38,271 nt of DNA. Origin: Thermoplasmatota archaeon. Its GTDB lineage: Archaea > Thermoplasmatota > Thermoplasmata > Halarchaeoplasmatales > Halarchaeoplasmataceae. Below the pieces are notes generated by a model. That model ran no database searches. It was not told the origin of the DNA and saw only the letters and a program-made list of their open reading frames with translations. The position numbers and the translations under genes are program-made. Of the stretch, positions 6,971-37,216 are shown in pieces. The stretch is from the NCBI GenBank assembly GCA_018334755.1, contig JAGXLI010000014.1, positions 1-38,271 on the forward strand, in the 5' to 3' direction. How positions within the stretch are numbered: the stretch's first letter is position 1; every line of letters starts with the position of its first letter.

Positions 6971-6994
6971 GACCCGTAGGATAACAAACGAAGA

Positions 6995-8254: not shown

Positions 8255-8280
8255 CTTATCGGGTCGGGATTAAGGCTTGA

Positions 8281-8337
8281 GGTTATAAATTTTTCTTTTG
8301 CGTTTTTAGTGGATTTTCTTGATAACTTATTTATATC
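8281..8337. promoter_or_regulatory. Divergent promoter region, pgk and second tldD
   Basis: Two separate TATA-like boxes are visible. One reads ATTTATAACC on the minus strand (8290-8281), serving pgk. The other reads ACTTATTTATATC on the plus strand (8325-8337), serving tldD. Each is about 30 bases from its start codon, predicting leaders under ten bases. The plus-strand box also rules out a start at 8309 for the downstream gene. Confidence 0.6.
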
Positions 8338-8365
8338 GGGAGGTTGTTTGTATCACGGTGCAAGC

Positions 8366-9805
8366 ATGCGGGACCTTGTCGATTTTGGGATAGAAAAGTT
8401 AGAGAGGGAAGATGTGAGATACGGTGACATTCGACTATCTGAAATAGAGACAGAAGTGATCAACGTCAAAAATGGCGCGGTCGAAGCTATCAAGAGCAGC
8501 GAAAGCAGGGGCTACGGGATCAGAGTGATAGATGGAGGATGGGGATTTGCATCCTCGGCAGATCTCAGCGAGAAGGGTATCGAAGAGACGATCAAGAGAG
8601 CTAAGAAGATCGCAAGGGCTTCTTCCAAAGCTTCGGGGAAGATAGATATAAAGGATATAGAGGTCTTTGAAGATACTTATACAACGCCGTATGAGAAGGA
8701 TCCTTTCAAGGTCGAACTCGAGGAAAAATTGGATCTGTTGATGGAGGTAGACGATCGCTTAGATATAGACGATAAGATCAAGGTAAGAAAATGCAATTTC
8801 AACGCCTGGAAAACGGATAAGATCTTCGCGAGTACAGAAGGTGCGATGATCGAACAGGAACTCGTAAAAACGGGTGGAGGACTGAACGTGAACGTTTCAG
8901 ACGGCGAAGACACTCAAAAAAGAAGCTATCCCAATGCGTTCGGAGGGGATTTTCATTCCAGCGGCTACGAATTTTTTGAATCTTTAGATCTTCTGGGGAA
9001 TGCGGAAGAAACTGCGCAGGAAGGAGTAGATCTTCTAGATGCGGAACAGTGCCCGGAAGGAGAGATGGATATCATACTGAACACCAATCAATTGGCTCTC
9101 CAGGTCCATGAGAGTGCCGGTCATCCAACCGAACTAGACCGTGCCCTCGGAACCGAGGCGAGCTACGCTGGGACCAGCTTCCTGACCCCGGACAAGCTGG
9201 AAGATTTCAGATACGGAGCGGAAAACGTCAATATAGTCTCTGACGCCACGGCACAAGGCGGGTTGGGAACTTTTGGATATGATGACGAGGGAGCTAGAGC
9301 AAAAAAAATAGATCTGGTAAAAGACGGTCTTTTCGTCGGCTACCAGGCCTCCCGAGAGGGAGCGGCGGAAGTCGGCGTCGATGTCAGCGGTAATATGAGG
9401 GCTGACGGCTGGGAAAATCTACCCATCGTGAGGATGACGAATATCAACCTGGAGCCGGGTGACTGGACCAAGGACGAGATCGTAGAAGAAACCGATAGAG
9501 GGATAATATTCGACGGTATAAAGAGCTGGAGCATAGACGACAAGAGGCTGAACTTCCAGTTCGGAACTGAGGCGGGATACCTTGTAGAGGACGGAGAGAT
9601 CACGGAACTCATCAAGAATCCGACCTATACCGGGATAACTTATGAATTTTGGAAGAGATGTGACGCTATCGCCGGAGAAGAAGACTGGAGATTGCACGGT
9701 GTACCGAACTGCGGAAAGGGAGAACCTCCCCAAACTATGCAGGTCGGACACGGCTGTGCACCCTCTCGATTCAGCGATATCAGAGTGGGGGTGGGAGAAT
9801 GGTAG
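8366..9805 (+). CDS. tldD: TldD-type zinc metalloprotease subunit (second pair)
   Basis: A 479-residue second TldD-family protein. The zinc motif is HESAGHPTELDR, first His near residue 248. It keeps the fold markers EGTEASYAGTSFL-like loop, FGYDDEGARAKKIDLVKDG and EAGYLVEDGEITE. It is clearly diverged from the first copy (HESAGH against HEAFGH), so this is an old duplication and not a recent one. The ATG at 8366 was chosen because the TATA box lies at 8325-8337, downstream of an in-frame start at 8309. The 3' end overlaps the partner gene by seven bases. A separate substrate from the first pair seems likely but is inference. Confidence 0.92.
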   Translation: MRDLVDFGIEKLEREDVRYGDIRLSEIETEVINVKNGAVEAIKSSESRGYGIRVIDGGWGFASSADLSEKGIEETIKRAKKIARASSKASGKIDIKDIEVFEDTYTTPYEKDPFKVELEEKLDLLMEVDDRLDIDDKIKVRKCNFNAWKTDKIFASTEGAMIEQELVKTGGGLNVNVSDGEDTQKRSYPNAFGGDFHSSGYEFFESLDLLGNAEETAQEGVDLLDAEQCPEGEMDIILNTNQLALQVHESAGHPTELDRALGTEASYAGTSFLTPDKLEDFRYGAENVNIVSDATAQGGLGTFGYDDEGARAKKIDLVKDGLFVGYQASREGAAEVGVDVSGNMRADGWENLPIVRMTNINLEPGDWTKDEIVEETDRGIIFDGIKSWSIDDKRLNFQFGTEAGYLVEDGEITELIKNPTYTGITYEFWKRCDAIAGEEDWRLHGVPNCGKGEPPQTMQVGHGCAPSRFSDIRVGVGEW

Positions 9806-11169
9806 GAACTAGAGAAGATTTTGAGCGGGCTACAGATCAAATTTTAGATGATGCCGAAGCGGACGAAGTCGAGATAAGGATATCAAAAAATGATACCGCC
9901 CTGACGAGATACGCTAACTCCCGCATCCATCAGAACATCGGGCAAAAGGACGTCAATATCTCGATAAGAGCCGTCTTTGGAAAGAAGATAGGTTCCGCCA
10001 CAACCAATTCCCTTGAAAGTGAAGCTATAAAGGAATGTCTCTCAAGAGCGGAGACAATCGCCAAACATCAGAGAGAGGATGCAGATTTTAAAGGTCTACC
10101 GGAGCCCAAAGAGGGAAGAAGAAGCCATGATAATTTCGTGGAAAAAACAAAAACCTTTTCGCCTGATGAAAGGGCGGAGAAGGTAAAAGAGATCATCGAT
10201 ATGGCGAAGGACGAAGGAATCGACAGAGTCTATGGCGCCTTCAAAACGGAAGCCCAGAACCTATATTTAGCCAACTCGAACGGCGTCGAAAATTTCTCTA
10301 GATTGACTTCCTCGAAACTGACCACCACGGCCATAGCCGATTGGGAAAATGATCAGGGATTTGGATGGGGTGAAAAGTGTTCTGCAAATGTGGAAGATAT
10401 AGACCACTTAGAGGTAGGAAGGACCGCGGTAGAAAAGGGTCTGAACAATCTGGATCCTAAAAAGATCGATCCCGGCGAGTATGACGTGGTACTTGAACCG
10501 TTAGCTGTCAAGAGCATCTTACAATATATGGACATGATGGGGTTCAGCGCGAGGAAGGTCCAGGAAGAGAGAAGCTTCATGAAAGGTAAATTCGGTGAAC
10601 AGATCATGGACGAAAGGGTGAATATCTATGACGATGCTTTAGATCAAGATATGATCGGTTATCCCTTCGATTACGAGGGCGTGCCCAAACAGAGAGTGGA
10701 CATAATAAAGGACGGAGTGGCAAACGAAGTTGTTTACGACTCCTACACCGCGGGAAGAGATGAAGAGGATAAAGAGTCGACCGGTCACGCTCTTCCAATG
10801 CCGAGTCCGATGAGCCCGATGGCGTTGAACCTTTTGATGGATACCGGAGAGCAATCACAACAAGAGATGATAGAGGAAACAGAAAAAGGTATCCTGGTAA
10901 CTCGATTCAACTACTGCAGGCCGGTGCATCCGGTCAAAGGTATATTGACTGGCCTTACAAGGGACGGTACCTGGCTTATCGAGGACGGCGAGATAAAACA
11001 TCCTCTGAAAAATCTCAGGTTTACGCAGAACCTGATCGACGCTTTCGATAATATCGAGGGGATAGGAAAAGAAAGAGAACTCTTCGCCATGGGCTATCTT
11101 CCAGCCTATTTCGCCGCTCCAGCACTGAAGATACCTGATTTCCAGTTCACGGGTTCAACAGAATTTTAA
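9799..11169 (+). CDS. pmbA: TldE/PmbA-type partner subunit (second pair)
   Basis: A 456-residue PmbA/TldE-family protein paired with the second TldD. No HExxxH is present; the matching stretch reads VVLEPLAVKSILQYMDMMGF. Core markers include KFGEQIMDERVNIYDDALD, GYPFDYEGVPKQRVDIIKDG and the C-terminal TGLTRDGTWLIEDGEIKHPL. The Shine-Dalgarno sequence GGGGGTGGGAGA lies inside the end of tldD, and the seven-base overlap indicates coupling. An enrichment in Met-Pro around residues 330-350 (ALPMPSPMSPMALN) is unusual but lies in a loop-like stretch. Confidence 0.9.
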   Translation: MVGTREDFERATDQILDDAEADEVEIRISKNDTALTRYANSRIHQNIGQKDVNISIRAVFGKKIGSATTNSLESEAIKECLSRAETIAKHQREDADFKGLPEPKEGRRSHDNFVEKTKTFSPDERAEKVKEIIDMAKDEGIDRVYGAFKTEAQNLYLANSNGVENFSRLTSSKLTTTAIADWENDQGFGWGEKCSANVEDIDHLEVGRTAVEKGLNNLDPKKIDPGEYDVVLEPLAVKSILQYMDMMGFSARKVQEERSFMKGKFGEQIMDERVNIYDDALDQDMIGYPFDYEGVPKQRVDIIKDGVANEVVYDSYTAGRDEEDKESTGHALPMPSPMSPMALNLLMDTGEQSQQEMIEETEKGILVTRFNYCRPVHPVKGILTGLTRDGTWLIEDGEIKHPLKNLRFTQNLIDAFDNIEGIGKERELFAMGYLPAYFAAPALKIPDFQFTGSTEF

Positions 11170-15997: not shown

Positions 15998-18937
15998 TCA
16001 GCCCTCCTCTTCCAGCATCCGTTTTGCTTCCTGATACGTCGGTTCCAACTCCACGGCCCTCTCCACCGATTCTTTCCATCCATCATCCCCCGACCTTTTT
16101 TGAGCTATCCCTTTATTATACCAACTGACGGGATTCTCTCTATCTATGCTTATAGCCCTTTCGAACGTATCGAGAGCGGCTTCCACCAAGTCTCTTTCGA
16201 GCTGGCAAAATCCGATATTATTGAGTATATTCACATCATCAGATTTTAAACTCAAAGCGGTCTCAAAAGCTGTCAAGGCCTCTCCGTACCTCTCCATTTG
16301 ATGTGCAGCGCACCCGAGATTGTTATAGTACAGAGCGACGTCCTTCTCGGTAGCATCTCTAAAGAGCTCTAGGCTTTTCTCATAATCTCTATTCTTATAG
16401 TAAAATACTCCTAGGAGATTTAGGAGGTCTACACAACTTTCGCTGCCATCGAGCTCTTCAAGTGTTTCTATACCTTCTTCCCACCCCTGAGACTCCACCT
16501 CGCATCTTGCCTTTGCCATGATAAAATCGATTATAGGATTGGTTTCCAATTCTTGGGCATTTTGATAACAACTGAAGGCAGAGGAAAATTTACCCGTTCT
16601 TCGCATGGTCTCCCCTCTTCTCTCCCAAATGGTCAACATATCTTCTAAAAATTCGTCCTCTTCATTTTCTTCTATAGATTCTATCGCCTTCCTGTACTTC
16701 TCTAGATGGTAATATAATTCTTCAAGGTTCATCTCGGCTATCGTGGAGGGCAGAGCATCTATGAACATATCTTCTGCAGAAACCTGATCTTTTTTTTCAA
16801 AGAAGGAACATCCAATCATGTTCAAAGCCGTCTGATCATCCATCTTTGGAACGAGGTCCAATGCCTTGTCGGTCTCATCCATCCTCCACAGCAATAACCC
16901 TTCTTTTATCCTTCTCCTGTCATCCCCCAGCGTTTCAGATTCTAGTTCACTTTCTCCCTTTTTTCCACCACCTTTCCTTTTTTTGAGCCTGTAAACTTTC
17001 TCTTCCAATTCCTTTTTCCTTTCCTTTATCCCCTTCAATTTCTTGCTTTTTTCTTTCAACTTGGATTTTAAGTGGTGGATTATCTCATCCTTTTTCTCGA
17101 TCTTTTCTTCCAATTTTTTTCTACTTTCGAGTTCCTTTTTCAGATCTTTTAGGTCGCTTTCTAGATCCTTTTTTTCGTCCTTCAATCTGTCTATCTTTTC
17201 TTCCTTTTTTCTCACCTTGTTCTTTAGATTTTCCCGCTCGCCAACAAGGTGTTTTATGTCCTCTTCCTTTTCTTCGATATCCTTTTTAATCTCCTCTTTC
17301 TCGGCCCTTTCACCTTCCATCTCAGCAACTTTGCTTTCTAATTCGGCCTTTCCTTCTTTCAACCCTTGGATCTTATCTTTTTTCTCTTCCAATTTCTTTT
17401 TAAAATCATCCTCCCTTTCTTTCAATCCGCCGACCTTCTCTTCTTTGCCCCTGATCTCCTCTTCTATCTTCTTCTCTTTCTTTTCTTTCTCCTTCCTCGT
17501 TTTTTCTAAGATCTCCTTTAAATCATCTATCTCTTTCTCTTTCTTTTCAAGCGTCGTCTCCAGCTCACCTTTCTCGGATCTCAGTTCCTCCAATTCCTCT
17601 TTTTTATCTTCTATCTCTAGTTCAAATTTTCCTCCACCTTTTTGTCTGATCTTAACTTTATTTTCATCGCTCTTCTCAACCCCGGATTCTATTTTTTCTT
17701 CGATCTCTTCAGAAGTTACACTCCTTTGGGAACTCTCAACGACTGAACCTTCACTGCCCTTTTTCCCTAATTTTTCCTGCAGGATAAACTGCAGTTCTTG
17801 AGCACGGTCATGATTTGGATTTAGTTGAAGACAGCGCTGGATCTTTTTCCATGCTTTCTCATACCTTCCGAGTTGGTACAAGTAAGCGCCATTGATATAG
17901 TGGTATTCACCTTTCTTCGGTCTATTCTCGATCAGCTTTTCCGAGACCGCTAGAGCCTGTTCTATTTTTTCTAAGTTTTCGAAGACTAGAGCTTTGTTCA
18001 ATAGGGCCTCTTCGAAATCAGGATCTATGGAGAGGGCGCTGTTGATAGAATCCAAGGCCTCTTTGTATTCTCCCTTTCTTAGATGACAGAGGCCTTTATT
18101 GTTCCAGGCCTCTGTATCTTTAGGTTCTAGTTCCAAGATCTTCTCAAAGCTGAGTATCCCTTCGTCATACATACCTAGGTCGAGGAGCGTTCTTCCTTTG
18201 CCCCTCCAGGCCTCGATATAGTCTTCGTCATGATCTAGGGCTTTATCGTAGTTATCCAGAGCTTCTTCCTTTTTTCCTTCTCTGGAATAAGATTCTGCCA
18301 GATAGTACCATGCCTCTAGATTCTCTGGATCCATATCTAAAGAGTCCTGAAAAGCCCGTATAGCCTCTTCTAGACTGTTCTTTTCGAAGTAGATCTTCCC
18401 TTTTTTGAGAAAACCTATCGAAGGACTGTCTCCTTCCGATATAGCTTCCTCATAATAGTCCAGAGCTTTTTCGTGATCTCCTTTGGAAAGGTATCTATCC
18501 CCCTGTTCGAGGAATTCGTTCTCTTCTTCTTCGACCTCCTCTTCACGTTTCTCGCTCTTAACATCGGATAACAGATTATATTTTTTCAGCAGACGGTAAA
18601 ATTTTCCCCCACTCGCTATCTCAACGTCCATCTCTTCGGGAAGATCGGCATCGCTGGTATTTGTTGTCAATAAGAGTCCCTCGGTCCCGCCGGAGATCAT
18701 CTTTTCAACGCGCTCTGTCTCGACGGGGATCGCCTCTCCTGAGCGGGTACATTTTATGACGTAATCTTTGACTTCATCCTCTCTCTCTATCGTTCCTTCT
18801 GCAATAAAATCTCCTGAGACGGATTTGATGTTAGAAATATTGAACCCCATATTCTCAAGTAAATCTATACAGAGTCCTTCGAATTTTTTACGGCTCATCC
18901 TCTCTAGAGTTCCCAAGCACTCTCTTTGGTCGAGCAA
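15998..18937 (-). CDS. Mrr-like nuclease-fold / TPR / coiled-coil protein, 979 aa
   Basis: Residues 15-125 resemble a restriction-endonuclease-like (Mrr) domain: FEGLCIDLLENMGF, Asp43 in GDFIAEG, and Lys62 in YVIKCTR where nucleases have Q/V-x-K. A block of tetratricopeptide repeats follows at about 145-395, including SIGFLKKGKIYFEKNSLEEA, NLEAWYYLAESYSREGKKEE and TEAWNNKGLCHLRKGEYKEA. A long Lys/Glu coiled coil occupies about 430-675, and a second set of TPRs fills the C-terminal 300 residues. The start is a TTG with AGGTGA four bases upstream. The role is unknown; TPR and coil parts suggest a scaffold, and the N-terminal fold could bind or cut nucleic acid, or be inactive. It is the last gene of a minus-strand run. 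Confidence 0.85.
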   Translation of the reverse strand: MLDQRECLGTLERMSRKKFEGLCIDLLENMGFNISNIKSVSGDFIAEGTIEREDEVKDYVIKCTRSGEAIPVETERVEKMISGGTEGLLLTTNTSDADLPEEMDVEIASGGKFYRLLKKYNLLSDVKSEKREEEVEEEENEFLEQGDRYLSKGDHEKALDYYEEAISEGDSPSIGFLKKGKIYFEKNSLEEAIRAFQDSLDMDPENLEAWYYLAESYSREGKKEEALDNYDKALDHDEDYIEAWRGKGRTLLDLGMYDEGILSFEKILELEPKDTEAWNNKGLCHLRKGEYKEALDSINSALSIDPDFEEALLNKALVFENLEKIEQALAVSEKLIENRPKKGEYHYINGAYLYQLGRYEKAWKKIQRCLQLNPNHDRAQELQFILQEKLGKKGSEGSVVESSQRSVTSEEIEEKIESGVEKSDENKVKIRQKGGGKFELEIEDKKEELEELRSEKGELETTLEKKEKEIDDLKEILEKTRKEKEKKEKKIEEEIRGKEEKVGGLKEREDDFKKKLEEKKDKIQGLKEGKAELESKVAEMEGERAEKEEIKKDIEEKEEDIKHLVGERENLKNKVRKKEEKIDRLKDEKKDLESDLKDLKKELESRKKLEEKIEKKDEIIHHLKSKLKEKSKKLKGIKERKKELEEKVYRLKKRKGGGKKGESELESETLGDDRRRIKEGLLLWRMDETDKALDLVPKMDDQTALNMIGCSFFEKKDQVSAEDMFIDALPSTIAEMNLEELYYHLEKYRKAIESIEENEEDEFLEDMLTIWERRGETMRRTGKFSSAFSCYQNAQELETNPIIDFIMAKARCEVESQGWEEGIETLEELDGSESCVDLLNLLGVFYYKNRDYEKSLELFRDATEKDVALYYNNLGCAAHQMERYGEALTAFETALSLKSDDVNILNNIGFCQLERDLVEAALDTFERAISIDRENPVSWYNKGIAQKRSGDDGWKESVERAVELEPTYQEAKRMLEEEG

Positions 18938-24474: not shown

Positions 24475-25509
24475 ATGAACTACCGCGAAGACGAACTCGA
24501 CCTTCGCTTACTCCGCTTCCTTCTTTCGGGCGACGGCGTCCACGTCAACGTAAGCGAATTGTCAAGAGAGTTGGATATTCATTGGGCTACTGCAAAGAAA
24601 AAGCTCCAGTCTTTGTATGATCAAGATATACTCACACCGCCTTTTTACCCTTTCGTGCAGTTATTCGAAGAATATCCTTTACTGGTGCTGGTGAAAGCGG
24701 ACATGCCGAGGACCCAGGGCGTGAGGAACTTTTACAAGGACGACTCACACATCTTCGCGGCCTTTTCCTGCATGGAGGGCTTTTACAACACCTTTCTGAT
24801 CGAATTCTTTGAAGGTCTAGAGGATTATCATTCCTGGCGCAGTGAGATCGTCGAGGAAAACAAGATCCCTGATAGAGGGGAAAGGACACCGGCTCAATCG
24901 GAATTTTTCAGCAACAGGTTGAACTTCAAATACGAACCGACCTGTTTCATCCACAAGATGGTGGCTGAATTCGAAAAAAAAGGTTACGTGGAGCTGAACG
25001 GCAGAAAGATCGAGGGTGATACATTTCGAATACTGGAAAGGGTCATGAAAGGCGAGGGCATCCGGACCAATTATTCATACATCGGTAGAGAGATCGGAGC
25101 TAACAGGAAAACGGTGAAGAGAAGGATCGATTCTCTTTTAGGTGAAAACATAATTGAGGATCCAAAATGCTATTTTCCCAATCTCTTGATCCCTCCAGGC
25201 TACAACCTGATCGTGACCATGATCGAAGCGACATCGGGCAGAGAGGAAGTGAAGGCCTTTCTGGAAAGAGACGATAACGTTCCCAGAGCGGTCGAGACCA
25301 GTACGGAAAGGTACAACTTCCTGGTCTTCTCGGCCTTCGAGAGTATAGAGGAATTCTTTGAATGGGGCGAGAGGTTAAATTCTGAGTTCCCTGAAAAGAT
25401 CGGGGCGATCTCCAAAATCATATTGTCTTCCAGGATGATGCACATACTCGATCCGCAGAAAGTTTCGTTAGGATTCATCGAGAGGAGGTTATGGGAGATC
25501 AAACGTTGA
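24475..25509 (+). CDS. Transcriptional regulator with two HTH-effector units
   Basis: A 344-residue protein that looks like a tandem duplication of an Lrp/AsnC-style layout. Residues 5-55 form a winged helix-turn-helix (DLRLLRFLLSGDGVHVNVSELSRELDIHWATAKKKLQSL). An alpha/beta domain of about 100 residues follows. A second helix-turn-helix (TFRILERVMKGEGIRTNYSYIGREIGANRKTVKRRIDSLL) occupies about 180-230, then a second alpha/beta domain (NLIVTMIEATSGREEVKAFL). The halves share little identity. It is divergent from cobA and faces a glutamate dehydrogenase gene, so it might control either. It appears nearly leaderless. Effector and target are unknown. Confidence 0.78.
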   Translation: MNYREDELDLRLLRFLLSGDGVHVNVSELSRELDIHWATAKKKLQSLYDQDILTPPFYPFVQLFEEYPLLVLVKADMPRTQGVRNFYKDDSHIFAAFSCMEGFYNTFLIEFFEGLEDYHSWRSEIVEENKIPDRGERTPAQSEFFSNRLNFKYEPTCFIHKMVAEFEKKGYVELNGRKIEGDTFRILERVMKGEGIRTNYSYIGREIGANRKTVKRRIDSLLGENIIEDPKCYFPNLLIPPGYNLIVTMIEATSGREEVKAFLERDDNVPRAVETSTERYNFLVFSAFESIEEFFEWGERLNSEFPEKIGAISKIILSSRMMHILDPQKVSLGFIERRLWEIKR

Positions 25510-25691: not shown

Positions 25692-26978
25692 ATGGCAGAA
25701 GAAGGCTATAATCCATATAAGATGGCCCAGGAACAGTTCGATAGGATAGCTGAAAAGTTAGATCTCGACGAGGGGTTGAAAGATCTGCTGAGGGAGCCGA
25801 AAAGAGAATATCGATTCAATCTTCCCGTGAAGATGGATGACGGCAGTACGGAAGTGTTCAACGCTTTCAGGGTCCAGCACAACGACGCGCTAGGCCCGTG
25901 TAAAGGAGGCATCAGGTTCCACCCGGAAGAGACGGTCGATACCGTAAGAGCTCTTGCGATGTGGATGACCTGGAAGACCGCCGTCGCGGACATACCTCTC
26001 GGCGGCGGGAAAGGAGGCGTGATCTGTGATCCTCACGATCTTTCAGATAGAGAGCAGGAAAATATATGCAGGGAATACATCAAGGCGATAAACAAGAATA
26101 TAGGACCTCTTCAGGACGTTCCCGCTCCGGACGTGATGACCAGTCCTCAGCATATGCTGTGGATGATGGACGAATATGAGAACATACAGGGTGAAAAATA
26201 TCCAGGCGTGATAACTGGAAAACCCCAAGACATGGGAGGTTCTAAAGGTAGAACAGAAGCCACCGGCTACGGTTTGGTTTATCAGCTGAGAGAGCTTCTG
26301 AAAGAACTCGATAGAGATCCAAAAGATACAGTAGCTTCGATCCAAGGTTTCGGGAACGTGGCGCAGTATGCCGCCGAACTCTTCATCGAGTACGGCGGGA
26401 CCGTGGTTTCGGTATCCTGCTGGGACCAGGAGGATCAGAAAGCTTACAGCTACTATAAAGAAGACGGCATCGATCTTGAAGAGCTGAGGGGCATAACCGA
26501 CCGCTTTGGATCCGTAGATAAAAAGAAAGCGGAGAAGAAAGGTTACGAGCAACTGCCTGGGGATGATTGGTTGAAGCATGAAGTCGACGTTCTGATCCCG
26601 GCTGCTCTAGAAAACGCCATAACAGAAGATAACGTTAAGGATATACCCTCGGCAGTGGATATAATAATCTCGGGAGCTAACGGACCTATCACTCCGGAAG
26701 CGGACAATATGTTGGAAGACAGGGACATGATCGTCGTTCCCGATTTCCTGGCGAATGCAGGAGGAGTGACCTGCAGCTACTTCGAACAGGTACAGAGCAA
26801 CCAAAACTACTATTGGCCTAAGGACGAGGTTCTAGGAAAATTGGACAACAGCATGACCGACGCCTTCTACGAGGTATGGGAGCTCGCCCAGAAAAGGGAC
26901 GTCAGGATGAGAGACGCGGCCTACATGATCGCTATTCAGAGGGTCGCCGAGGCCTGCGAAGCCAGAGGATGGGTATAA
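25692..26978 (+). CDS. gdhA: Glutamate dehydrogenase, archaeal type
   Basis: A 428-residue enzyme that interconverts glutamate with 2-oxoglutarate and ammonia, probably hexameric and cytoplasmic. Markers: [26 protein letters not shown] with the substrate-binding Lys, the catalytic Lys in [31 protein letters not shown], the nucleotide loop IQGFGNVAQYAA and ANAGGVTCSYFEQVQ. Length and motifs match the archaeal-type enzymes of about 420 residues. The stretch after the second coenzyme strand (VVSVSCWDQEDQ) differs from the usual SDSxGG, so coenzyme choice is not clear. The start has AAGGTGG seven bases upstream. It is followed after 22 bases by a PPDK_N-domain gene. Confidence 0.95.
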   Translation: MAEEGYNPYKMAQEQFDRIAEKLDLDEGLKDLLREPKREYRFNLPVKMDDGSTEVFNAFRVQHNDALGPCKGGIRFHPEETVDTVRALAMWMTWKTAVADIPLGGGKGGVICDPHDLSDREQENICREYIKAINKNIGPLQDVPAPDVMTSPQHMLWMMDEYENIQGEKYPGVITGKPQDMGGSKGRTEATGYGLVYQLRELLKELDRDPKDTVASIQGFGNVAQYAAELFIEYGGTVVSVSCWDQEDQKAYSYYKEDGIDLEELRGITDRFGSVDKKKAEKKGYEQLPGDDWLKHEVDVLIPAALENAITEDNVKDIPSAVDIIISGANGPITPEADNMLEDRDMIVVPDFLANAGGVTCSYFEQVQSNQNYYWPKDEVLGKLDNSMTDAFYEVWELAQKRDVRMRDAAYMIAIQRVAEACEARGWV

Positions 26979-27000: not shown

Positions 27001-29997
27001 ATGAAAGAGAAGTTCAAAAAGATCGAGGAGGCCGTTCAAAAGGCCACGGGTAAATCTGTTGATCTAGGGAGTCTAGAAACCACTTCTGACATCCCAGAGG
27101 CATCACTCATCGGTGATGTCCTCCTTTTTTCAACTTCTTACGATTATTTCCTTGTACAGGAAGAGGGCCGTCTCGACTCGCTGATAGAAGATAGGTTCTC
27201 AGTGGGAGATGTGAGGCAGCCCCCGAAGGTGGATCACGTCGAAACGGAAGAGCAGTGTAGAGAGGCGTTGAAAGAACGGGAGATCGATCTCCTTATCGTC
27301 TTCGGCGAGCCTATGGATACCTCTTTTGAAGGATTTCTGTCGGAGACGGAAAAGGCACATGAGGAACTACCCATAGTATGGATAAGTAACGATGGATCTG
27401 AATCTTTAGACCGGATGGATCTATCTAATTTGGAGGAGATATTCACCTGGAACGGCGACGGCGAGATAATACTGACCATAATACAATACATCGAAGACAA
27501 GATCTGCTTTTCGAAAGGTGATTTCGATGAGCACGCGCGAGTCATACTGCTCGTCGAAGACTCGAGGCAGTATTATTCAACTTACTTGACCCACATCTAT
27601 GATAGGATATGGTCATATCTAGATAGGATCATTCACGAGGGTCTCACAAGGGAAAAGAGGATCGAACGGTATAGGAGAAGACCCTTCGTCATCCACGCCG
27701 AAGACGTAGAAGAGGGTCGAGAGAGATATGAAGAGTTAGAGCGGGACTTATCATGCGTTATAACGGACAATCGCCTCAAGAAGAACGACCGAGCTGAAGA
27801 AAACGCCGGTCTGGAATTTGCTGAGGAGATCAAAGAGGATCGACCCGAGCTTCCCGTGCTACTTCAGTCCTCTTCTCAAATAGAAGAAGATATGAAGAAC
27901 AAGGATATCGAGTACGTGAACAAGAAGGCTCCAGACCTGAATCAAAAGCTGATCGAATTCGTCGATCAGAGGTACACCCCCACCGAACTGGCCATCAAGG
28001 AAAATGATCATCTCGGTGGAAAAAGTATCGAAACTATACGTGAGTTCGAAGATGAGATAAAACATCTCGATGAAGATGAGCTGTATGAACTCGTGAAGGA
28101 ATCGGAATTGATCAATTGGCTGATAAACTTGACCGAGTTCGAGATCGCCGAGAACATCGAGACCATCGCTAAGAGCGGGGTCTCTCCTAGAAGAGTGAAG
28201 GAGGAAGTTTTGGATGCCCTTGAAGAGCACAGGTATGCCTCTTACAGTACGGCCGTAACGAACTTCAGGAGAGAGACTGACGATCTCGAAAGCAGGATCA
28301 ACCGGATAGGTGATGGCGCACTTGGAGGAAAAGCTCGAGGTCTAGCTTTCATCTCCAAACTCTTTTCGAGATTCCTCAATGAGGAGCTTTTCGAAGATTT
28401 AGAGATCACGGTCCCGAGGACCATAGTTCTCACCTCGGACGTTTTTGACAAATTTTTAGAAGAAAACGAAATAATGGATTCCTCCCTCTTGAAGAGGTCC
28501 GATGAACGCATCTCTTCTAAATTTATAGAGGGAAGTCTACCGGCCACGGTCATAGGAGATGTACGCGCGTTCATCAGGAACACGAGAAATCCCCTAATCG
28601 TGCGTTCTTCCGGCTTACTGGAGGATTCGATGACCCGTCCTTTCGCGGGAGTTTATTCCTCCATGTTCCTGCCCAATGAATCCTGGGAGACCAGCCTCAG
28701 GTTCAGAGAGGTATGCGACGCCATAAAACACGTTTACGCCTCCACGTTCTTCGAGAACGCCAGGAACTATCTCAGATCGACTCCAAAAAACATAGGCGAC
28801 GAAAAGATGTCAGTCATACTTCAGGAGGTGGTGGGGAAAAAGTACGGTAAGTACTTTTATCCAACTATTTCGGGAGTCGCTAAATCCTACAATCATTATC
28901 CCGCAAAAGGTTGTGATCCTGAAGACGGCATCGTTTATCTCGCTTTAGGCCTGGGGAAAGAGATAGTCGAAGGTGGACAGTCGTACTTCTTCTGCCCCGA
29001 ATGTCCCAAATCTCCCATGTTCGGCACCCCTAAGGACTTCATCCCTCACTCACAGACTGAGTTTTACGCTCTTGATCTCGAATCGGTTTACAGGAGGGTG
29101 GAAAAGGACGAAGAGACTTCACTAGCGAACCTCGATATGAAGAAGGCGGAGAAACATAGAGTTCTCGATAAGGTTGCTTCGACTTACTCACCCCGGGACG
29201 ACCGTCTTTACCCGGGTATAAACAGAGAAGGTTCTATAGTGGTGGACTTCGCCCCGATAATAAAGCACGGTTCTATACCATTGGCCGATGCGATGAAACT
29301 TCTCCTCGAGATCGCCGAGATAGCCTTGGGTTATCCAGTTGAGATAGAATTTGCCGTGAAATTCGAAGAAGACGGGAACTCGGCGGAACTCGTGGTCCTT
29401 CAGATAAGGAACATGGTCTCCAAAGACATGTTCTTAGATATCGATATAGAGAAATGTGACGAAGAGAAGCTGGTCTGCCGCAGCGATAAAGTACTGGGAA
29501 GCGGTATGATCACTGAGATAAGAGACGTGATCTATACGAAACCGGATCAGTTCGAGATGAAGAACAGTGAAAGAGCCGCAGAGGAGATAAGCGAAGTGAA
29601 CAAGAGACTCTTGGAAGAAGACGAGGACTACATATTGATAGGCCCGGGCAGGTGGGGTACTACAGATCACTGGATGGGCATACCTGTAGAGTGGGGCGAT
29701 ATCGCCGGAGCTAAAGTGATAGTGGAGACGCCAGCCGAAGGACGAGCCATCGAACCGTCTCAGGGTTCGCATTTTTTCCACGATATGATCGCTTCAGAGA
29801 CCTGTTACCTGGTTGTCGATGATGACGAGACTATAGATTTGGAGTGGTTGGAAAAGCAGCAGGTAGAGGATGAGATGGAGGATATCAAGCATGTCCGCCT
29901 CGAAGAACCCGTGGAAGTTAGGATAGATGGAAAGGAGGGAAAAGGCGTGATAATGAAAAAAGTACAAAAAGGAGCGGAGACGAATGATGATAATTGA
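27001..29997 (+). CDS. Receiver-like / PEP-pyruvate-binding-domain (PPDK_N) kinase-like protein, 998 aa
   Basis: Two response-regulator-like domains come first. The first (about 35-170, DVLLFSTSYDYFLVQEEGRL) is degenerate. The second (about 178-325) keeps the acidic pair in VILLVEDSRQ, a likely phospho-acceptor Asp near 253 in CVITDNRL, Ser in LLQSSSQ and Lys in VNKKAPD. From about 437 (LGGKARGLAFI) a PPDK_N ATP-grasp domain follows, with IVRSSGLLEDSMTRPFAGVY near 532 and QEVVGKKYGKYFYPTISG. Near 880-930 a further conserved piece has GPGRWGT and GSHFFHDM. The phosphohistidine domain and PEP-binding barrel of real PEP synthase are missing, so the phosphate acceptor is unknown. A 44-base gap, holding a 21-codon overlapping frame, separates it from the next gene. 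Confidence 0.85.
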   Translation: MKEKFKKIEEAVQKATGKSVDLGSLETTSDIPEASLIGDVLLFSTSYDYFLVQEEGRLDSLIEDRFSVGDVRQPPKVDHVETEEQCREALKEREIDLLIVFGEPMDTSFEGFLSETEKAHEELPIVWISNDGSESLDRMDLSNLEEIFTWNGDGEIILTIIQYIEDKICFSKGDFDEHARVILLVEDSRQYYSTYLTHIYDRIWSYLDRIIHEGLTREKRIERYRRRPFVIHAEDVEEGRERYEELERDLSCVITDNRLKKNDRAEENAGLEFAEEIKEDRPELPVLLQSSSQIEEDMKNKDIEYVNKKAPDLNQKLIEFVDQRYTPTELAIKENDHLGGKSIETIREFEDEIKHLDEDELYELVKESELINWLINLTEFEIAENIETIAKSGVSPRRVKEEVLDALEEHRYASYSTAVTNFRRETDDLESRINRIGDGALGGKARGLAFISKLFSRFLNEELFEDLEITVPRTIVLTSDVFDKFLEENEIMDSSLLKRSDERISSKFIEGSLPATVIGDVRAFIRNTRNPLIVRSSGLLEDSMTRPFAGVYSSMFLPNESWETSLRFREVCDAIKHVYASTFFENARNYLRSTPKNIGDEKMSVILQEVVGKKYGKYFYPTISGVAKSYNHYPAKGCDPEDGIVYLALGLGKEIVEGGQSYFFCPECPKSPMFGTPKDFIPHSQTEFYALDLESVYRRVEKDEETSLANLDMKKAEKHRVLDKVASTYSPRDDRLYPGINREGSIVVDFAPIIKHGSIPLADAMKLLLEIAEIALGYPVEIEFAVKFEEDGNSAELVVLQIRNMVSKDMFLDIDIEKCDEEKLVCRSDKVLGSGMITEIRDVIYTKPDQFEMKNSERAAEEISEVNKRLLEEDEDYILIGPGRWGTTDHWMGIPVEWGDIAGAKVIVETPAEGRAIEPSQGSHFFHDMIASETCYLVVDDDETIDLEWLEKQQVEDEMEDIKHVRLEEPVEVRIDGKEGKGVIMKKVQKGAETNDDN

Positions 29998-30041: not shown

Positions 30042-33000
30042 ATGGTTGATGAGAAGATCAAGGCGTCCTTCTCAGACGAGGGTGAAGGCGAGCAGCTCAT
30101 ACCCTCCGAGAGGGAGGAAATAGACGAGTTAGAGGAACGAGTTAAAGAGCTGAACTGCTTTTACAGGATATCTGAGATCGTGAACGACGATTCTTTGTCC
30201 TTGGATGAAGCTCTTAAAGAGATAGTGGATGTACTTCCCCCTTCCTGGCAGTACGAGGATATCACCTCCGCCAGGATAAAGGTCGGTGAGAAAGAATATA
30301 CCTCGGGAGGTTTCGAAGAAACAGAATGGATGCAGAAGAGCGAGATCAGGGCGAAGAGTGAAAAGATAGGAAAGATAGAAGTGGCCTATCATGAAGAGAG
30401 GCCGGAGATGGACGAAGGACCGTTTTTGAAAGAAGAAAGAAAATTGATAGATACGCTCGCGGATCTTCTAGGACGTTTCGTCCAGGAGAAAACATCTATA
30501 GCCGAAGATCAAGAAGAACCCGAAGCTCCAACACAGAGACAGGATTGGGAGGTCATAATAGACCTCCTGATGAAGACGGACCCTAGAACCCTTCTTCGGA
30601 TGACGAGAAAGATGGTCTATCACCTTTACAGGCATGAGAACGAGAGGATACAAGCTCTTCTGGATGATGTATGTCCGATAGATAATGGTACTGGGGCTCC
30701 AAAGTGGTGCGGGATCAACATGCCGAATCCGAAGCAGGACCTCGATTCTCTAAAAACGGTCCAAGAAGAGGTATTCAAGGTAGCGAAGGAGCATATGGAG
30801 CCCGAGGAGATATCTGACCTTTTCCACAGGTGGTTGAAAGAAGATAAGGCTAGGCCGCTTCTCCTCGCCTCTCAGAAAAGAGGCATACCTCTGGTGGAGA
30901 TGACTGAAGAACTTAACCGTTTCTTCAGGAAACCCGACTCGGAGAAGGCTTTAGCTGAAGAAGACCAGATGAGTATCCGCACCCAGCTAATACAGCGTTT
31001 TTTCACGGATAGGCTGGATTTTGTCAACGTTGCGAAAGAATACATCAAAGTGGAAGATTACGAGTCCCTGGTAAAAAATATCGTCGGTCCAGCTAGAGGA
31101 GCTGGCAAACTCGGCGGTAAGGCCTCTGGGGCCTACCTCGCTCAGAAGATACTGCAGGAGGAACTCGATGAAGATATAACTGAAAACATAGCTTCCCCGA
31201 AAACTTGGTACATCACTTCTGACACGATGATAGACCTGATCCACTACAACGATCTCGACGAACTGGTCCATGTTAAATATCTGGACCCGGAGGAGATAAG
31301 ACAGGAGGAGCCGTTTTTAGAGCAGTTGATGAAGAACGCTACATTCCCGTCCGAGATAACGGAAGGTCTGAGAAAGATACTGAGAGATATAGGAGATAAT
31401 CCGATAATCGTAAGGTCTTCTAGTCTTTTAGAGGATAACTTCGGTGCGGCTTTTTCCGGCAAATACAAGAGCCTATTCTTACCCAATAAAGGCAGTGAGA
31501 AGGAAAGATTGAAGGATTTGAAGAACGCTGTAGCTGAAATTTACGCCTCTACGTTCTGTGCCGATCCCATCGAGTACCGGAAGGAAAGAGGTTTATTGAA
31601 TTTCAGCGAAGAGATGGGTATTATGGTACAGGAAGTAGTAGGAACTGAAATAGGTGATTATTATCTCCCCACCTACGGAGGGGTGGCTTTCAGCAAGAAC
31701 GAATTCCGCTGGTCTCCGAGGATAGGGAGAGATGACGGGGTCGTGAGACTGGTACCCGGACTAGCGACTAGAGCCGTCGATAGGATCGGCGACGATTATC
31801 CCATCTTGGCGTCTCCAAACAGACCGGATCTAAGAGTGAACTCGACCGTGGAAGAACGCGTAAAATATTCGCCGCGGTACATGGACGTGATAAATCTTGA
31901 GGAAGAAAGGCTTGAAACCGTAGACGCCGTAGAATTTTTCAAAGAACATCCGAACGAATATCCCGGTATGGAGAAGGTCGTCTCTTTGTACGAAAATGGA
32001 AATCTTAAGACGCCCTCTGGTCTGATCCTACACCCCGAAAAAGAAGACATGGTGGTCACCTTCTCCAAACTGTTCGACAAGACCGACTTTTTGAGAAAGA
32101 TAAACAAGATCCTTGACGTGCTCGAGGAGAAGATCGGTTATCCCGTCGATGTAGAATTCGCATCGGATGGAGAGAAATTGTACATAGTTCAGTGCAGACC
32201 CCAGAGTCAAAGTCTGGATCAGGAGAGAGTGAAGATCCCCGTAGATGTCAAGGAGAAAAGGAAACTTTTCTCCGCGAACAGGTACGTGACCACGGGTAAT
32301 ATAGGGAATATCGAGTACATCGTGTACGTGGCCCCAGAAGAGTACTCGTCGCTGGAGAGCAGGGAAAGGATGCAAGAAGTCGCTCAAGTTGTGGGAGAAC
32401 TCAACAAAGAACTGCCGAAGGGAAAATTCATCCTGATGGGCCCCGGTCGATGGGGCAGCCGAGGCGATATCAAGCTAGGGGTTCCGGTCAAGTATAGGGA
32501 CATCCACAGGACCGCATTGCTGGTAGAAGTGGCGAAAGAGAGAGGTGATTATGAACCCGAACTCTCATTCGGGACACACTTTTTCCAGGATCTCGTGGAA
32601 TCCGGCATCAAGTATTTGCCTCTATATCCTGAAGAGGAACACAACATATGGAAAGAGGAGATGTTCTTCAGATCGGAAAATAGGTTGACGGACTTTTTAC
32701 CTGACTATGAAGATTACGAGGACGTCGTGAGGGTCATAGACATTGGGGATATAAGCCGAGGCGGAACCCTCACCGTGACCATGGACGGCGAAGCCAACCG
32801 CGCTCTGGCCTATCTTGAACCCTCGGATCACTGGCAGTGGCGTATGAAAAAAGTCAAACAGATGGGGAGGGAGTTGGATCTAGATCTCTACGGAGTGAAG
32901 AAGCTGTACGTCGTCGGGAGCACAAAAGAGGCTACGGCGGGGCCTGAAAGCGACATCGATCTGATAGTGCATTTTGAAGGAGACGAAGAAAAGAAAGATA

Positions 33001-33197
33001 AGCTGAAGAACTTCTTTGATAGATGGGATCAGAGACTTGTCCAGGAGAATGAAAAGAGGATAGGAAAACGGCTCGATAAGATCCTCGACGTTCACTTTAT
33101 CACGGATGAAGACCTGGAGAAGGGAACGTCTTGGGCATCTCACGTAACTTCGAGACATAAATCGGCGAGAGAGATACCTATCGATGAGAGCGCCTAA
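30042..33197 (+). CDS. GAF-like / PPDK_N / nucleotidyltransferase fusion protein, 1051 aa
   Basis: A paralogue of the preceding protein with a different front and back. Residues 30-150 resemble a GAF-type sensor (LNCFYRISEIVND, SWQYEDITSARIKVG). A helical linker with two Cys (VCPIDNGTGAPKWCGINMP) follows. The PPDK_N domain starts near 354 (GKLGGKASGAYLA), with IVRSSSLLEDNFGAAFSGKY near 454 and the ATP-domain end VQCRPQS near 714. The shared GPGRWGS ... GTHFFQDLVES segment is at about 800-845. The last 105 residues are a minimal nucleotidyltransferase: VVGSTKEATAGPESDIDL with the metal Asp pair and LDVHF for the third Asp. It lacks the phosphohistidine and PEP domains. GAGGTC precedes the ATG. 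It ends two bases from the convergent phosphoesterase gene. Confidence 0.85.
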   Translation: MVDEKIKASFSDEGEGEQLIPSEREEIDELEERVKELNCFYRISEIVNDDSLSLDEALKEIVDVLPPSWQYEDITSARIKVGEKEYTSGGFEETEWMQKSEIRAKSEKIGKIEVAYHEERPEMDEGPFLKEERKLIDTLADLLGRFVQEKTSIAEDQEEPEAPTQRQDWEVIIDLLMKTDPRTLLRMTRKMVYHLYRHENERIQALLDDVCPIDNGTGAPKWCGINMPNPKQDLDSLKTVQEEVFKVAKEHMEPEEISDLFHRWLKEDKARPLLLASQKRGIPLVEMTEELNRFFRKPDSEKALAEEDQMSIRTQLIQRFFTDRLDFVNVAKEYIKVEDYESLVKNIVGPARGAGKLGGKASGAYLAQKILQEELDEDITENIASPKTWYITSDTMIDLIHYNDLDELVHVKYLDPEEIRQEEPFLEQLMKNATFPSEITEGLRKILRDIGDNPIIVRSSSLLEDNFGAAFSGKYKSLFLPNKGSEKERLKDLKNAVAEIYASTFCADPIEYRKERGLLNFSEEMGIMVQEVVGTEIGDYYLPTYGGVAFSKNEFRWSPRIGRDDGVVRLVPGLATRAVDRIGDDYPILASPNRPDLRVNSTVEERVKYSPRYMDVINLEEERLETVDAVEFFKEHPNEYPGMEKVVSLYENGNLKTPSGLILHPEKEDMVVTFSKLFDKTDFLRKINKILDVLEEKIGYPVDVEFASDGEKLYIVQCRPQSQSLDQERVKIPVDVKEKRKLFSANRYVTTGNIGNIEYIVYVAPEEYSSLESRERMQEVAQVVGELNKELPKGKFILMGPGRWGSRGDIKLGVPVKYRDIHRTALLVEVAKERGDYEPELSFGTHFFQDLVESGIKYLPLYPEEEHNIWKEEMFFRSENRLTDFLPDYEDYEDVVRVIDIGDISRGGTLTVTMDGEANRALAYLEPSDHWQWRMKKVKQMGRELDLDLYGVKKLYVVGSTKEATAGPESDIDLIVHFEGDEEKKDKLKNFFDRWDQRLVQENEKRIGKRLDKILDVHFITDEDLEKGTSWASHVTSRHKSAREIPIDESA

Positions 33198-33199
33198 AC

Positions 33200-34081
33200 T
33201 TAGCTTTCTACATCTATCACGGTTCTGGTGGCGTTCTCCGGTTCCTCTGTATCGAAGTTGACAAGGGCCAATTTTTGTCCAGAATGAACTCCGGTGAAGG
33301 ATAAAGTACTTCCTATCTTTTCTCTCCAGTTTCCGGTCATCTCCACCGTTTCATGGACATGGCCGTGGAGGGTTATGAGAGGTTCTTTCTGCTCGATGAA
33401 CCTCTTCACGGCGATGCTGCCCACGTGCACGTCCATCGGTGCGTGATCCACCTTTTTACCGTCGAGATCCGCTCTGTCGAGGTCGGTTTCGTAGGGCGGT
33501 GTGTGAAAGAGGTAAATGGTCTTTTCTGGGGGTGAATTTTTAGACAGCTCTGTTAGGTCGTCTTCTATTGTGGTGTGTTTTTCTTCGTATTTGGAGATCT
33601 CTACGGTCCTTGTACCTTTTTCCGGCGATACTGCCCCAACACCTACAAACCTAGAGACGTCATAGCGCTCCCAATCTTTCAATCGAAAGGGGGTCGGAGG
33701 TACGAAACTGTATCCGCTCACGTGAAGACCGTCGAACGTTTCGGTTTCATCGTGGATGTAGTGGAGAATATCTTCGTCGGCCATCTTTTTCAGTTGTTTT
33801 TCATAGATCCTTGGATCGTCATTACCCATGATTATGTAGATGTTCACCTTCTTATCTAATGAATCTTTTATTTCCTGCAGATGTTTGGATAAAAAATTCT
33901 CTAAGAATTTCTCTGGATCTCGTCCTCTATTCACCCCTGAAGGCAAAATATCCCCTCCGATGAAAACACCGTCTGGTTTCTCCTCTTTGATCTCCTTGAA
34001 CAATCTCTCGTACTTCTTTTTAACTCCGTGAAGATCCGATGTGAACATGCAGTTCAGAGCGGACACCAACCTATAGTTCAA
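33200..34081 (-). CDS. Calcineurin-like metallophosphoesterase
   Basis: A protein of up to 293 residues with the five metal-binding blocks of the family: SDLHG, GGD (VFIGGDILP), GNDD, FHTPP and GHVHE. Such enzymes hydrolyse phosphomonoesters or phosphodiesters with two metal ions; the substrate is not predictable here. The longest frame begins with TTG at 34081; an ATG 11 codons later (34048) directly before FTSDLHG is an alternative start. It converges on the GAF/PPDK_N/nucleotidyltransferase gene, with two bases between stops, and is divergent from the second glutamate dehydrogenase. Confidence 0.88.
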   Translation of the reverse strand: MNYRLVSALNCMFTSDLHGVKKKYERLFKEIKEEKPDGVFIGGDILPSGVNRGRDPEKFLENFLSKHLQEIKDSLDKKVNIYIIMGNDDPRIYEKQLKKMADEDILHYIHDETETFDGLHVSGYSFVPPTPFRLKDWERYDVSRFVGVGAVSPEKGTRTVEISKYEEKHTTIEDDLTELSKNSPPEKTIYLFHTPPYETDLDRADLDGKKVDHAPMDVHVGSIAVKRFIEQKEPLITLHGHVHETVEMTGNWREKIGSTLSFTGVHSGQKLALVNFDTEEPENATRTVIDVES

Positions 34082-34207: not shown

Positions 34208-35602
<1,395 letters not shown>

Positions 35603-35638: not shown

Positions 35639-35728
35639 AATCCCTGAAGAACAGAGCGAAGATCAGGCTAAGAGATTACTCCCGCTGATGGGAAATACAT
35701 ATATATTTATGCACATTTGAGTATGGTG

Positions 35729-36481
35729 ATGAATAAAATAGTCGTCATGAGTGGTAAAGGTGGAGTAGGTAAGAGTACGGTCGCTGCGAACTTAGCTTTC
35801 AAGTTCGCTTCTGAAGGAAAAAAAGTCGGTATATTCGATAGTGATTTTCACGGACCTTCTATACCCCAGATGCTGGGTGTTAAGGAGGATATCCTGGGAG
35901 CGAGGGACGAAAAAAACATAGAACCCGTAGAGGTCGATTCCAATCTCAAGGTCGTCTCTATGGAATTTTTACTCCCGGATGATGATTCAGCCGTTATCTG
36001 GCGTGGACCTATGAAGATGAAGGCCATAAAGCAATTTGTAGAGCAGGTCAACTGGGGAGATATAGATTATCTGATCATCGACCTGCCTCCGGGGACCGGA
36101 GATGAACCTCTCAGTATAGCCCAACAGATACCCGAGTTGGACGGGTCGGTGATAGTGACCACCCCTCAGGAGGTCGCGGTTCAGGCCGTCAAAAAGTCCA
36201 TATCGTTCTCAGAGAAACTCGATCTCGGCGTGTTGGGTGTCATCGAAAACATGAGTGGACTTACCTGTCCAAATTGTGGGGAAGAGATAGAAGTCTTCGG
36301 TTCCGGCGGAGGAAAGGAGATGGCTGAAAAGTTAGATGTGCCTTTTTTGGGCGAAATTCCACTAGATCCAGAGATAATGGCCAGCGGGGAAGAAGGAGAA
36401 CCATTTTTCGGTAAAAGCGCGGCTTATTCTGAATCTTTTGAAGATATAGTAGAAAAATTACTAGAAAGATTGGGTGAATGA
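35729..36481 (+). CDS. Mrp/NBP35-family iron-sulfur carrier ATPase
   Basis: A 250-residue P-loop ATPase of the ApbC/Mrp/Nbp35 group, which carries and hands over 4Fe-4S clusters in the cytoplasm. The deviant Walker A is MSGKGGVGKST, followed by DSDFHGPSIPQMLG, the Walker B-like IIDLPPGTGDEPLS and the CPNC motif near residue 190 that binds a bridging cluster. In-frame starts exist at 35717 (TTG), 35723 and 35729; a TATA box at about 35699-35711 places transcription near 35730, favouring the last and a leaderless message. It heads an operon with two NifX-like genes and a ferredoxin-ATPase gene. Confidence 0.92.
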   Translation: MNKIVVMSGKGGVGKSTVAANLAFKFASEGKKVGIFDSDFHGPSIPQMLGVKEDILGARDEKNIEPVEVDSNLKVVSMEFLLPDDDSAVIWRGPMKMKAIKQFVEQVNWGDIDYLIIDLPPGTGDEPLSIAQQIPELDGSVIVTTPQEVAVQAVKKSISFSEKLDLGVLGVIENMSGLTCPNCGEEIEVFGSGGGKEMAEKLDVPFLGEIPLDPEIMASGEEGEPFFGKSAAYSESFEDIVEKLLERLGE

Positions 36482-36482
36482 T

Positions 36483-36851
36483 ATGAAGGTGGCAATCTCT
36501 GCAAGCGGAGAAGGTAAAGAGGCTAGTATAGATGAAAGATTCGGTAGGTGCCCGTATTTTGTGGTAGCGGATACTGAGGAGATGGACTTTAAAACTATAG
36601 AGAACGAACACGCGGACGAATCACACGGTGTCGCTCCTCAAGTTGTCCAGACCTTGTCCGAGATGGACATAAAAGCGGTCATAACCGGGAATATCGGACC
36701 AAATGGCTACGAAACCCTAGAATCGGCTGGGATGAAAGCTTATAGAGGCTCGGGAGAGATCTCGAAAGCGGTGGAAGAGTTGAAGCAAGGAGACCTCGAA
36801 GAGATAGAAAATGAAACCGTAAGAGGTCACCACGGCAAAGGAGGGAGATGA
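36483..36851 (+). CDS. NifX/NifB-C-terminal-like cofactor-binding protein (first)
   Basis: A 122-residue protein of the dinitrogenase iron-molybdenum-cofactor family (NifX, VnfX, C-terminus of NifB). Markers are MKVAISASGE, SIDERFGRCPYFVV, and GNIGPNGYETLESAGMKAYRG. Members bind FeMo-cofactor precursors in nitrogen fixers, but many stand-alone archaeal copies occur without nitrogenase, and their cargo is uncertain. The end is HHGKGGR. GGTGA lies before the ATG, one base after the mrp stop, and the stop overlaps the next gene, so the operon is tightly coupled. Confidence 0.88.
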   Translation: MKVAISASGEGKEASIDERFGRCPYFVVADTEEMDFKTIENEHADESHGVAPQVVQTLSEMDIKAVITGNIGPNGYETLESAGMKAYRGSGEISKAVEELKQGDLEEIENETVRGHHGKGGR

Positions 36852-37216
36852 TGAAGGTAGCTGTGCCCGCTATGGGCGAGTCTGGATACGATGAAAATAT
36901 CAGCGATCATTTCGGTCGATGTAAAACTTTTGCGATATACGATACGGAGGAGGAAGACCTGAGTTTTATCCCCAACAACAGCAAACACATGGGAGGAAAA
37001 GGCAATCCTCCCGAACTCCTGGCTGAAGAAAACATCGATCTCATGCTGTGCGCTAATCTAGGGAGAAAGGCCGTGAGCCTGTTTGAAGAACTGGGGATAG
37101 ATGTCTACTGCGGTGCTGGAGGTACAATAGAGGATGCACTTGATTCTTGGGACGATGATCAACTGAGAGAGGCGTCGGTCTCCGACGCATGTGAAGAGGG
37201 ACGTCACGACCATTGA
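36848..37216 (+). CDS. NifX/NifB-C-terminal-like cofactor-binding protein (second)
   Basis: A 122-residue relative of the preceding protein: MKVAVPAMGESGYDENISDHFGRCKTFAIYD, then CANLGRKAVSLFEELGIDVYCGAGG. It has more cysteines than the first copy (five, including CAN and YCG) and ends with RHDH, which could bind a metal or cluster. Two ATG codons stand in a row; with GGAGGG just upstream, the second (36851) has the better spacing. A 27-base gap leads to the ferredoxin-ATPase gene. Confidence 0.87.
   Translation: MMKVAVPAMGESGYDENISDHFGRCKTFAIYDTEEEDLSFIPNNSKHMGGKGNPPELLAEENIDLMLCANLGRKAVSLFEELGIDVYCGAGGTIEDALDSWDDDQLREASVSDACEEGRHDH

Follow-up and report, generated by a model that had tools for sequence, protein, structure and literature searches.

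Covalent control of nitrogen assimilation is textbook knowledge in bacteria, where GlnE and GlnD exert it, and we know of no equivalent that has been established for an archaeal glutamate dehydrogenase (GDH). The subject of this report is a gene of an uncultured Thermoplasmatota archaeon (GenBank assembly GCA_018334755.1), found in a stretch of 38,271 nucleotides (contig JAGXLI010000014.1, positions 1 to 38,271, forward strand; hereafter the window). It encodes a fusion protein, P0001, that runs from a sensor-like N-terminus through an ATP-grasp domain of the PPDK_N family and a conserved block lacking a Pfam match to a C-terminal nucleotidyltransferase of the MNT type, and it belongs to a conserved cassette with genes for a GDH (GDH1), a paralogue of the fusion (RecPPDK) and a metallophosphoesterase (MPE). 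By analogy with described systems, and with a probability that we put at roughly 50%, this cassette would be a module that controls GDH1 through reversible covalent modification, in which the nucleotidyltransferase writes the mark and the MPE probably erases it.

Several described systems share parts with this locus. MntA transfers adenosine monophosphate (AMP) with a GSX10DXD motif (PMC7641770; PMC11586414), and the tail of the fusion resembles MntA and other MNT antitoxins (HEPN-MNT, type VII) in fold, size, GSX10DXD motif and third Asp, but it sits on a PPDK_N protein of 930 residues, has no HEPN partner, and is linked to a GDH and a phosphoesterase. With GlnE the likeness lies in a Pol-beta-type nucleotidyltransferase carried by a large protein that is proposed to control an enzyme of nitrogen assimilation; GlnE has two nucleotidyltransferases, whereas the fusion has one, with a separate phosphoesterase as possible eraser, and its neighbour is a GDH, not glutamine synthetase. 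ATP-grasp domains of the PPDK_N type transfer phosphate to a histidine (PMC4844700), and in HpeHI the ATP-grasp and His-swivel parts are separable, the acceptor being a separate protein (PMC12167813). Like phosphoenolpyruvate (PEP) synthase, PPDK and rifampin phosphotransferase (RPH), the fusion has a PPDK_N ATP-grasp domain with conserved nucleotide-binding residues; unlike these enzymes, it has no detected PEP-utiliser or swivel-His domain, and carries a sensor module in front and a nucleotidyltransferase behind. Mammalian GDH (GLUD1) is inactivated via AMPylation by selenoprotein O (SelO; PMC12375108), a precedent for such control, although SelO is a kinase-fold AMPylase unrelated to the nucleotidyltransferase domain of the fusion. 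A Bacteroidales “PEP/pyruvate-binding domain-containing protein” encoded next to gdhA shares with RecPPDK a receiver-like module, PPDK_N and a GRWG/HFF block; it is a relative of that paralogue, not of the fusion, and has no nucleotidyltransferase tail. The parts are known, then, but their combination and the GDH context appear to be undescribed in the literature searched, which took in few subscription journals contained no paper with both PPDK_N and a nucleotidyltransferase, and yielded none on PPDK_N beside a GDH; an earlier description is possible.

A nucleotidyltransferase domain at the end of a PPDK_N protein

The fusion gene and its parts are as follows.

30042..33197, + strand: fusion protein P0001, 1051 amino acids (open reading frame (ORF), Pfam, 29 full-length homologues)
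30123..30491, + strand: N-terminal GAF-like sensor module, residues 28-150 (recurs in a PAS sensor protein)
31110..32255, + strand: PPDK_N ATP-grasp domain, residues 357-738 (PF01326; alignment to PEP synthase and RPH)
32259..32816, + strand: conserved block, residues 740-925 (GPGRWGS, SFGTHFFQD; no Pfam or PDB relative)
32826..33179, + strand: nucleotidyltransferase domain, residues 929-1046 (PF01909; tail model with MNT topology; nucleotidyltransferase matches in Foldseek and VIA)
32916..32960, + strand: GSX10DXD motif, G959-S960 to D971-I-D973 (regular expression; invariant in 29 full-length homologues)
33087..33089, + strand: third catalytic Asp, D1016 (invariant; strand 3 of the tail model)

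The tail is almost certainly a true MNT-type nucleotidyltransferase domain. Pfam PF01909 (NTP_transf_2, cut-off 21 bits) matches the whole protein at 33.3 bits and the tail alone at 39.7 bits, a separate whole-genome scan recovers it in the tail at 1.2e-9 as one of five PF01909 matches in the 2.1 Mb archaeal genome, and the family matches all 31 homologous tails scanned. GSX10DXD occurs once in the fusion, at residues 959-973, the third Asp sits in “ILDVHF”, and G959, S960, D971, D973 and D1016 are invariant across the 29 full-length homologues, which are 46-84% identical to the query. With a profile of the tail run over the class and phylum samples, true relatives score above 130 bits and other nucleotidyltransferases below 25, leaving a clean gap between them. 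Judged from these residues, the domain is predicted, with good confidence, to be catalytically active.

Structure agrees. A model of the tail, built with one homologue in the alignment (predicted local distance difference test, pLDDT, 76), shows the order helix, strand, strand, long helix, strand, with D971 just ahead of strand 2, D973 in strand 2 and D1016 in strand 3; a full-length AlphaFold model from a two-sequence alignment (mean pLDDT 33) was unusable, and only the tail model was used. Foldseek placed a Sulfolobus nucleotidyltransferase (2rff), MntA (7bxo) and a spectinomycin nucleotidyltransferase at the top (E 2e-3 to 4e-3), and VIA-align the MNT antitoxins 8xeo and 8xeh together with 2rff (Z 7.9-8.0, values near 8 being moderate alone and in agreement with the sequence evidence), while a PDB profile search with the tail gave 2rff at 2.4e-4, followed by kanamycin nucleotidyltransferase, with MntA lower. 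That searches by sequence and by fold both rank the kanamycin and spectinomycin enzymes near the Sulfolobus protein and MNT is what favours an action on a small molecule, as in aminoglycoside nucleotidyltransferases, or on RNA, in a cluster that would be metabolic and not regulatory; no small-molecule-binding second domain follows the tail of about 120 residues, however, and the sensor and receiver modules of the cassette point to regulation, which makes such a role quite improbable.

A preliminary description of the window, made from its sequence by a model, had read GS...G.ESDIDL and a third Asp as the pattern of an MNT-type transferase fused to a PPDK_N protein with a GAF-like sensor. The core of this held: PF01909 and PF01326 match within one ORF, GSX10DXD is exact and the triad invariant, the structure prediction that it had proposed gave an MNT topology with the Asp triad in place and MntA among the best matches, and neither outcome that it had named as contrary, a lacking triad or a tail forming part of another known domain, occurred. 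Its coordinates (32875-33197, the last 105 residues) do contain the domain, with a start set slightly late: helix 1 begins near residue 929, exactly where a stand-alone homologue starts, and the domain therefore extends over about 32826-33179. The ATP-grasp assignment was likewise correct (PF01326, 183.5 bits, cut-off 27). As to the N-terminal module, which has no Pfam match, “sensor” is reasonable because the same module recurs within a PAS/HTH (helix-turn-helix) sensor protein of a relative, and “GAF” is unproven.

In the PPDK_N domain the ATP-site residues K360, R458, E705, Q717 and R719 (Lys, Arg, Glu, Gln-x-Arg) are invariant in the full-length homologues. Neither the PF00391 phosphohistidine swivel nor a PEP-binding barrel was found in the fusion (Pfam, E<=1), and a PEP synthase function was therefore rejected. 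The block that follows is common to the fusion, RecPPDK and the Bacteroidales proteins; Pfam gave no match to it, nor did the PDB below E 0.5. In the fusion homologues it carries GPGRWGS, SFGTHFFQD and H846, all invariant. The motif T/SxxGGxxxH (PMC12167813), which would mark H846 as a swivel-type phosphohistidine, is absent from the fusion.

Full-length relatives of the fusion were found in the genus, the family and other families of the class, the named one, from Thermoplasmata archaeon PWHU01000020.1, being 84% identical. ORFs of true tail relatives are nearly all about 1040-1100 amino acids long, and the shorter ones are contig-end fragments, save in two genomes (G557 and G067) described below. 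Because full-length relatives span families and the catalytic residues are invariant, the fusion is, on comparative grounds, an old, selected architecture conserved across several families of the phylum.

A conserved cassette with glutamate dehydrogenase

The genes around the fusion are the following.

24475..25506, + strand: winged-helix (HTH) regulator, adjoining GDH1 and kept with it even where the module is absent
25692..26978, + strand: GDH1, archaeal-type GDH, 428 amino acids (GdhA_Arch; Pyrococcus furiosus 1gtm)
27001..29997, + strand: RecPPDK, receiver-like plus PPDK_N paralogue of the fusion, 998 amino acids, without the nucleotidyltransferase
33200..34081, - strand: MPE (PF00149, 54 bits; convergent with the fusion gene)
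34253..35602, + strand: GDH2, NADP-specific-type GDH, 449 amino acids (NF006929, 750 bits, cut-off 536)

GDH1 scores 488 bits with GdhA_Arch, below the cut-off of 750, and 2.9e-124 with the P. furiosus enzyme 1gtm. The order HTH regulator, GDH1, RecPPDK, fusion and convergent MPE is kept across several families where contigs suffice; GDH2 is often, not always, near the cassette, in more distant families an HTH gene could not always be located ahead of GDH1, and the outer neighbours vary between genomes. In the window, GDH2 is directly followed (35717-37216) by a NUBPL/Mrp-type P-loop ATPase and then two Nitro_FeMo-Co domain proteins. The sole exception to the cassette is G557, where the MPE adjoins a truncated second copy of the fusion C-terminus (L093:14498-15166); in this copy, which is among the 31 PF01909-positive tails and is probably decaying, the Gly of GS is lost (GS -> DS). 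The MPE motifs D16-x-H18, GD44, GND88, H193 and GHxH243, its metal ligands, are invariant in 31 homologues, as befits a probable eraser.

Co-occurrence was followed in 390 genomes sampled across the phylum and in a close sample of 61 relatives. In the phylum sample, 26 genomes have both a GDH1 orthologue and the fusion, and 360 have neither; in the 4 discordant ones (G423, G543, G515, G592) the contigs stop at the expected place, and the nominal Fisher p of 6e-36, uncorrected for phylogeny or linkage, is not to be taken at face value. Among the 61 relatives, the MPE subfamily occurs in 14 of the 15 fusion-bearing genomes, the exception (G016) being a contig that ends inside the fusion gene, and in none of the fusion-less ones, leaving aside one short fragment of 53% identity in the 61% complete genome G006. 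A need for the module only where two GDHs coexist was considered and rejected: the pattern is near perfect among the 61 relatives and fails phylum-wide, G495 (one contig) having the fusion and GDH1 and no GDH2 at E<=1e-90, and G187 and G195 having both GDH types and no fusion.

Near full-length relatives of RecPPDK, with 33-34% identity, occur in records of Parabacteroides, Phocaeicola and Prevotella. In Parabacteroides (L186:6079-10563) and Phocaeicola (L188:4074-8596) the receiver-PPDK_N gene directly neighbours gdhA in divergent orientation, and a second GDH lies no more than about 6 kb away. Elsewhere among Thermoplasmata and relatives, GDH2 has a RecPPDK relative beside it in the absence of the fusion; the pairing of PPDK_N proteins with GDH is thus broader than the nucleotidyltransferase fusion. 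Matches in a plasmid collection comprised only RecPPDK-like Bacteroidales proteins and one partial Ilyobacter match, none of which covered the nucleotidyltransferase tail, and no relative was found in viral contigs.

The link to GDH had been raised in the preliminary description, which named GDH as a possible target of modification in the manner of GlnE, and it gains from the gene order conserved across several families and from the Bacteroidales pairs. The accompanying analogies with MntA and GlnE hold at the level of chemistry and fail at that of family membership, since the tail scores below both cut-offs (NCBIfam MntA_antitoxin, 20.1 bits against 60; GlnE Pfam PF03710, 12.1 bits against 24) and no HEPN family matched any of six cassette proteins scanned, the conserved cassette consisting of HTH regulator, GDH1, RecPPDK, fusion and MPE. 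The fusion falls outside both families and may work like them. That the tail is a type VII HEPN/MNT antitoxin riding on a larger protein would explain the shared motif and fold, and is nonetheless highly improbable in view of the MntA score, the failure to find an HEPN gene in the conserved cassette, and the chromosomal conservation with a metabolic enzyme. In PADLOC, the tail and the MPE gave weak matches to the candidate models PDC-S09 and PDC-S10, judged to be domain-level only.

Proposed reversible control of GDH1 and its alternatives

We infer a scheme in which the N-terminal module and the ATP-grasp half of the fusion would sense a metabolic signal, the nucleotidyltransferase would move a nucleotide, probably AMP, onto a protein of the cassette, be it GDH1 or the PPDK_N partner, and the convergent MPE would strip this mark, the net outcome being a reversible control of GDH1 comparable to that of GlnE on glutamine synthetase. 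Reversible covalent control is favoured because of the precedents above, namely the AMP-transferring motif of MntA, the AMPylation of GDH by SelO, and histidine phosphorylation by PPDK_N proteins and HpeHI. Its parts differ in strength: that the module regulates GDH or nitrogen metabolism is fairly likely, that it works via protein nucleotidylation has slightly less than even chances, and that GDH1 is the direct substrate of the nucleotidyltransferase is doubtful.

Several observations weigh against this scheme. Gene order and co-occurrence are not independent evidence, because linked genes travel together. GDH1 is kept without the module in G001 and G002, of the same genus, and in G045, of another family: all three retain the HTH regulator and GDH1, have other genes downstream, and miss RecPPDK, fusion, MPE and GDH2. 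A single deletion could explain why G001 and G002 lack the module; as these genomes keep the enzyme, GDH1 does not need the module, which is to be expected of a regulator. Control of GDH, if real, does not need the nucleotidyltransferase either, since RecPPDK-GDH pairs occur without it in other archaea and in Bacteroidales. The chief point against GDH1 as direct substrate comes from G067, a 78% complete genome in which neither the fusion protein nor GDH1 was detected and the tail nucleotidyltransferase is a stand-alone gene of 124 amino acids (L110:1185-1556), starting with ATG-GAT-CAT-TGG at the domain boundary and convergent with the MPE. The domain is thus an independent module, tied most closely to the MPE, and this pairing in a genome lacking a detected GDH1 hints that the substrate may differ.

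The same stand-alone gene speaks against a non-catalytic role, in which the nucleotidyltransferase would be a nucleotide sensor gating PPDK_N. Pol-beta-type domains can persist as sensors; the full triad and GS are invariant in full-length homologues, though, and the only Gly-less tail belongs to the truncated second copy of G557, so that a mere sensor is improbable.

Returning to reversible control by nucleotidylation, its main rival turns on one residue of GDH1.

26034..26036, + strand: GDH1 His115 (invariant with the module, Arg in three module-less orthologues; a lead)

In this alternative the ATP-grasp half would modify GDH1 by phosphotransfer to a histidine in trans, perhaps His115 by the active-site lysine loop, and the nucleotidyltransferase would only tune the PPDK_N proteins by modifying RecPPDK or the fusion itself. 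All 38 orthologues that count as module-bearing have His at position 115 (GGKGGVICDPHDLSD); 9 of these were fetched after the prediction was made, and two (G423 and G543) lie on contigs that stop short of the module. Module-less orthologues have Arg there (3 of 3) and other archaeal-type GDHs Ser, Lys or Thr, and the position aligns with a Lys of P. furiosus GDH eight residues past the conserved GGGKGG lysine. PPDK_N chemistry, the transfer of a phosphoryl group to His, fits such a role, as do the separability of ATP-grasp and His-swivel parts in HpeHI (PMC12167813), the lack of a recognised swivel domain in the fusion, and the RecPPDK-GDH pairs that lack the nucleotidyltransferase. Yet the module-less orthologues represent no more than about two independent lineages; among the 145 GDH1 positions invariant in the module set, G002 differs at 2 and G045 at 13, for which simple arithmetic gives 0.18 shared differing positions expected by chance, and the tracking of the module by His115 is suggestive only. 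Moreover, GDH2, which is paired with RecPPDK elsewhere, has Lys at this position, and the invariant H846 behind PPDK_N could be the acceptor instead. We regard this rival as unlikely.

A scheme joining the two chemistries, in which the ATP-grasp domain and the nucleotidyltransferase of one polypeptide, with RecPPDK and the phosphoesterase, would mark GDH by phospho-His115, AMP or both, is more unlikely still. If true, it would give archaea a counterpart to the cascade of GlnE and glutamine synthetase, and its PPDK_N proteins would be, to our knowledge, the first known to act on a protein and not on a metabolite. Covalent control of GDH is directly testable because a single conserved operon supplies a defined writer together with a probable eraser and a candidate target, and the GDH link across domains of life gives a context to the unexplained “PEP/pyruvate-binding domain-containing protein” family.

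Other features of the window

Away from the cassette, positions 4269-11169 hold two confirmed TldD/PmbA metallopeptidase homologues, at 4269-5630 and 9799-11169, with which the gene at 5627-6970 clusters. At 15998-18937 a protein of 979 amino acids has many TPR repeats and, N-terminally, a weak Mrr-type restriction endonuclease domain.

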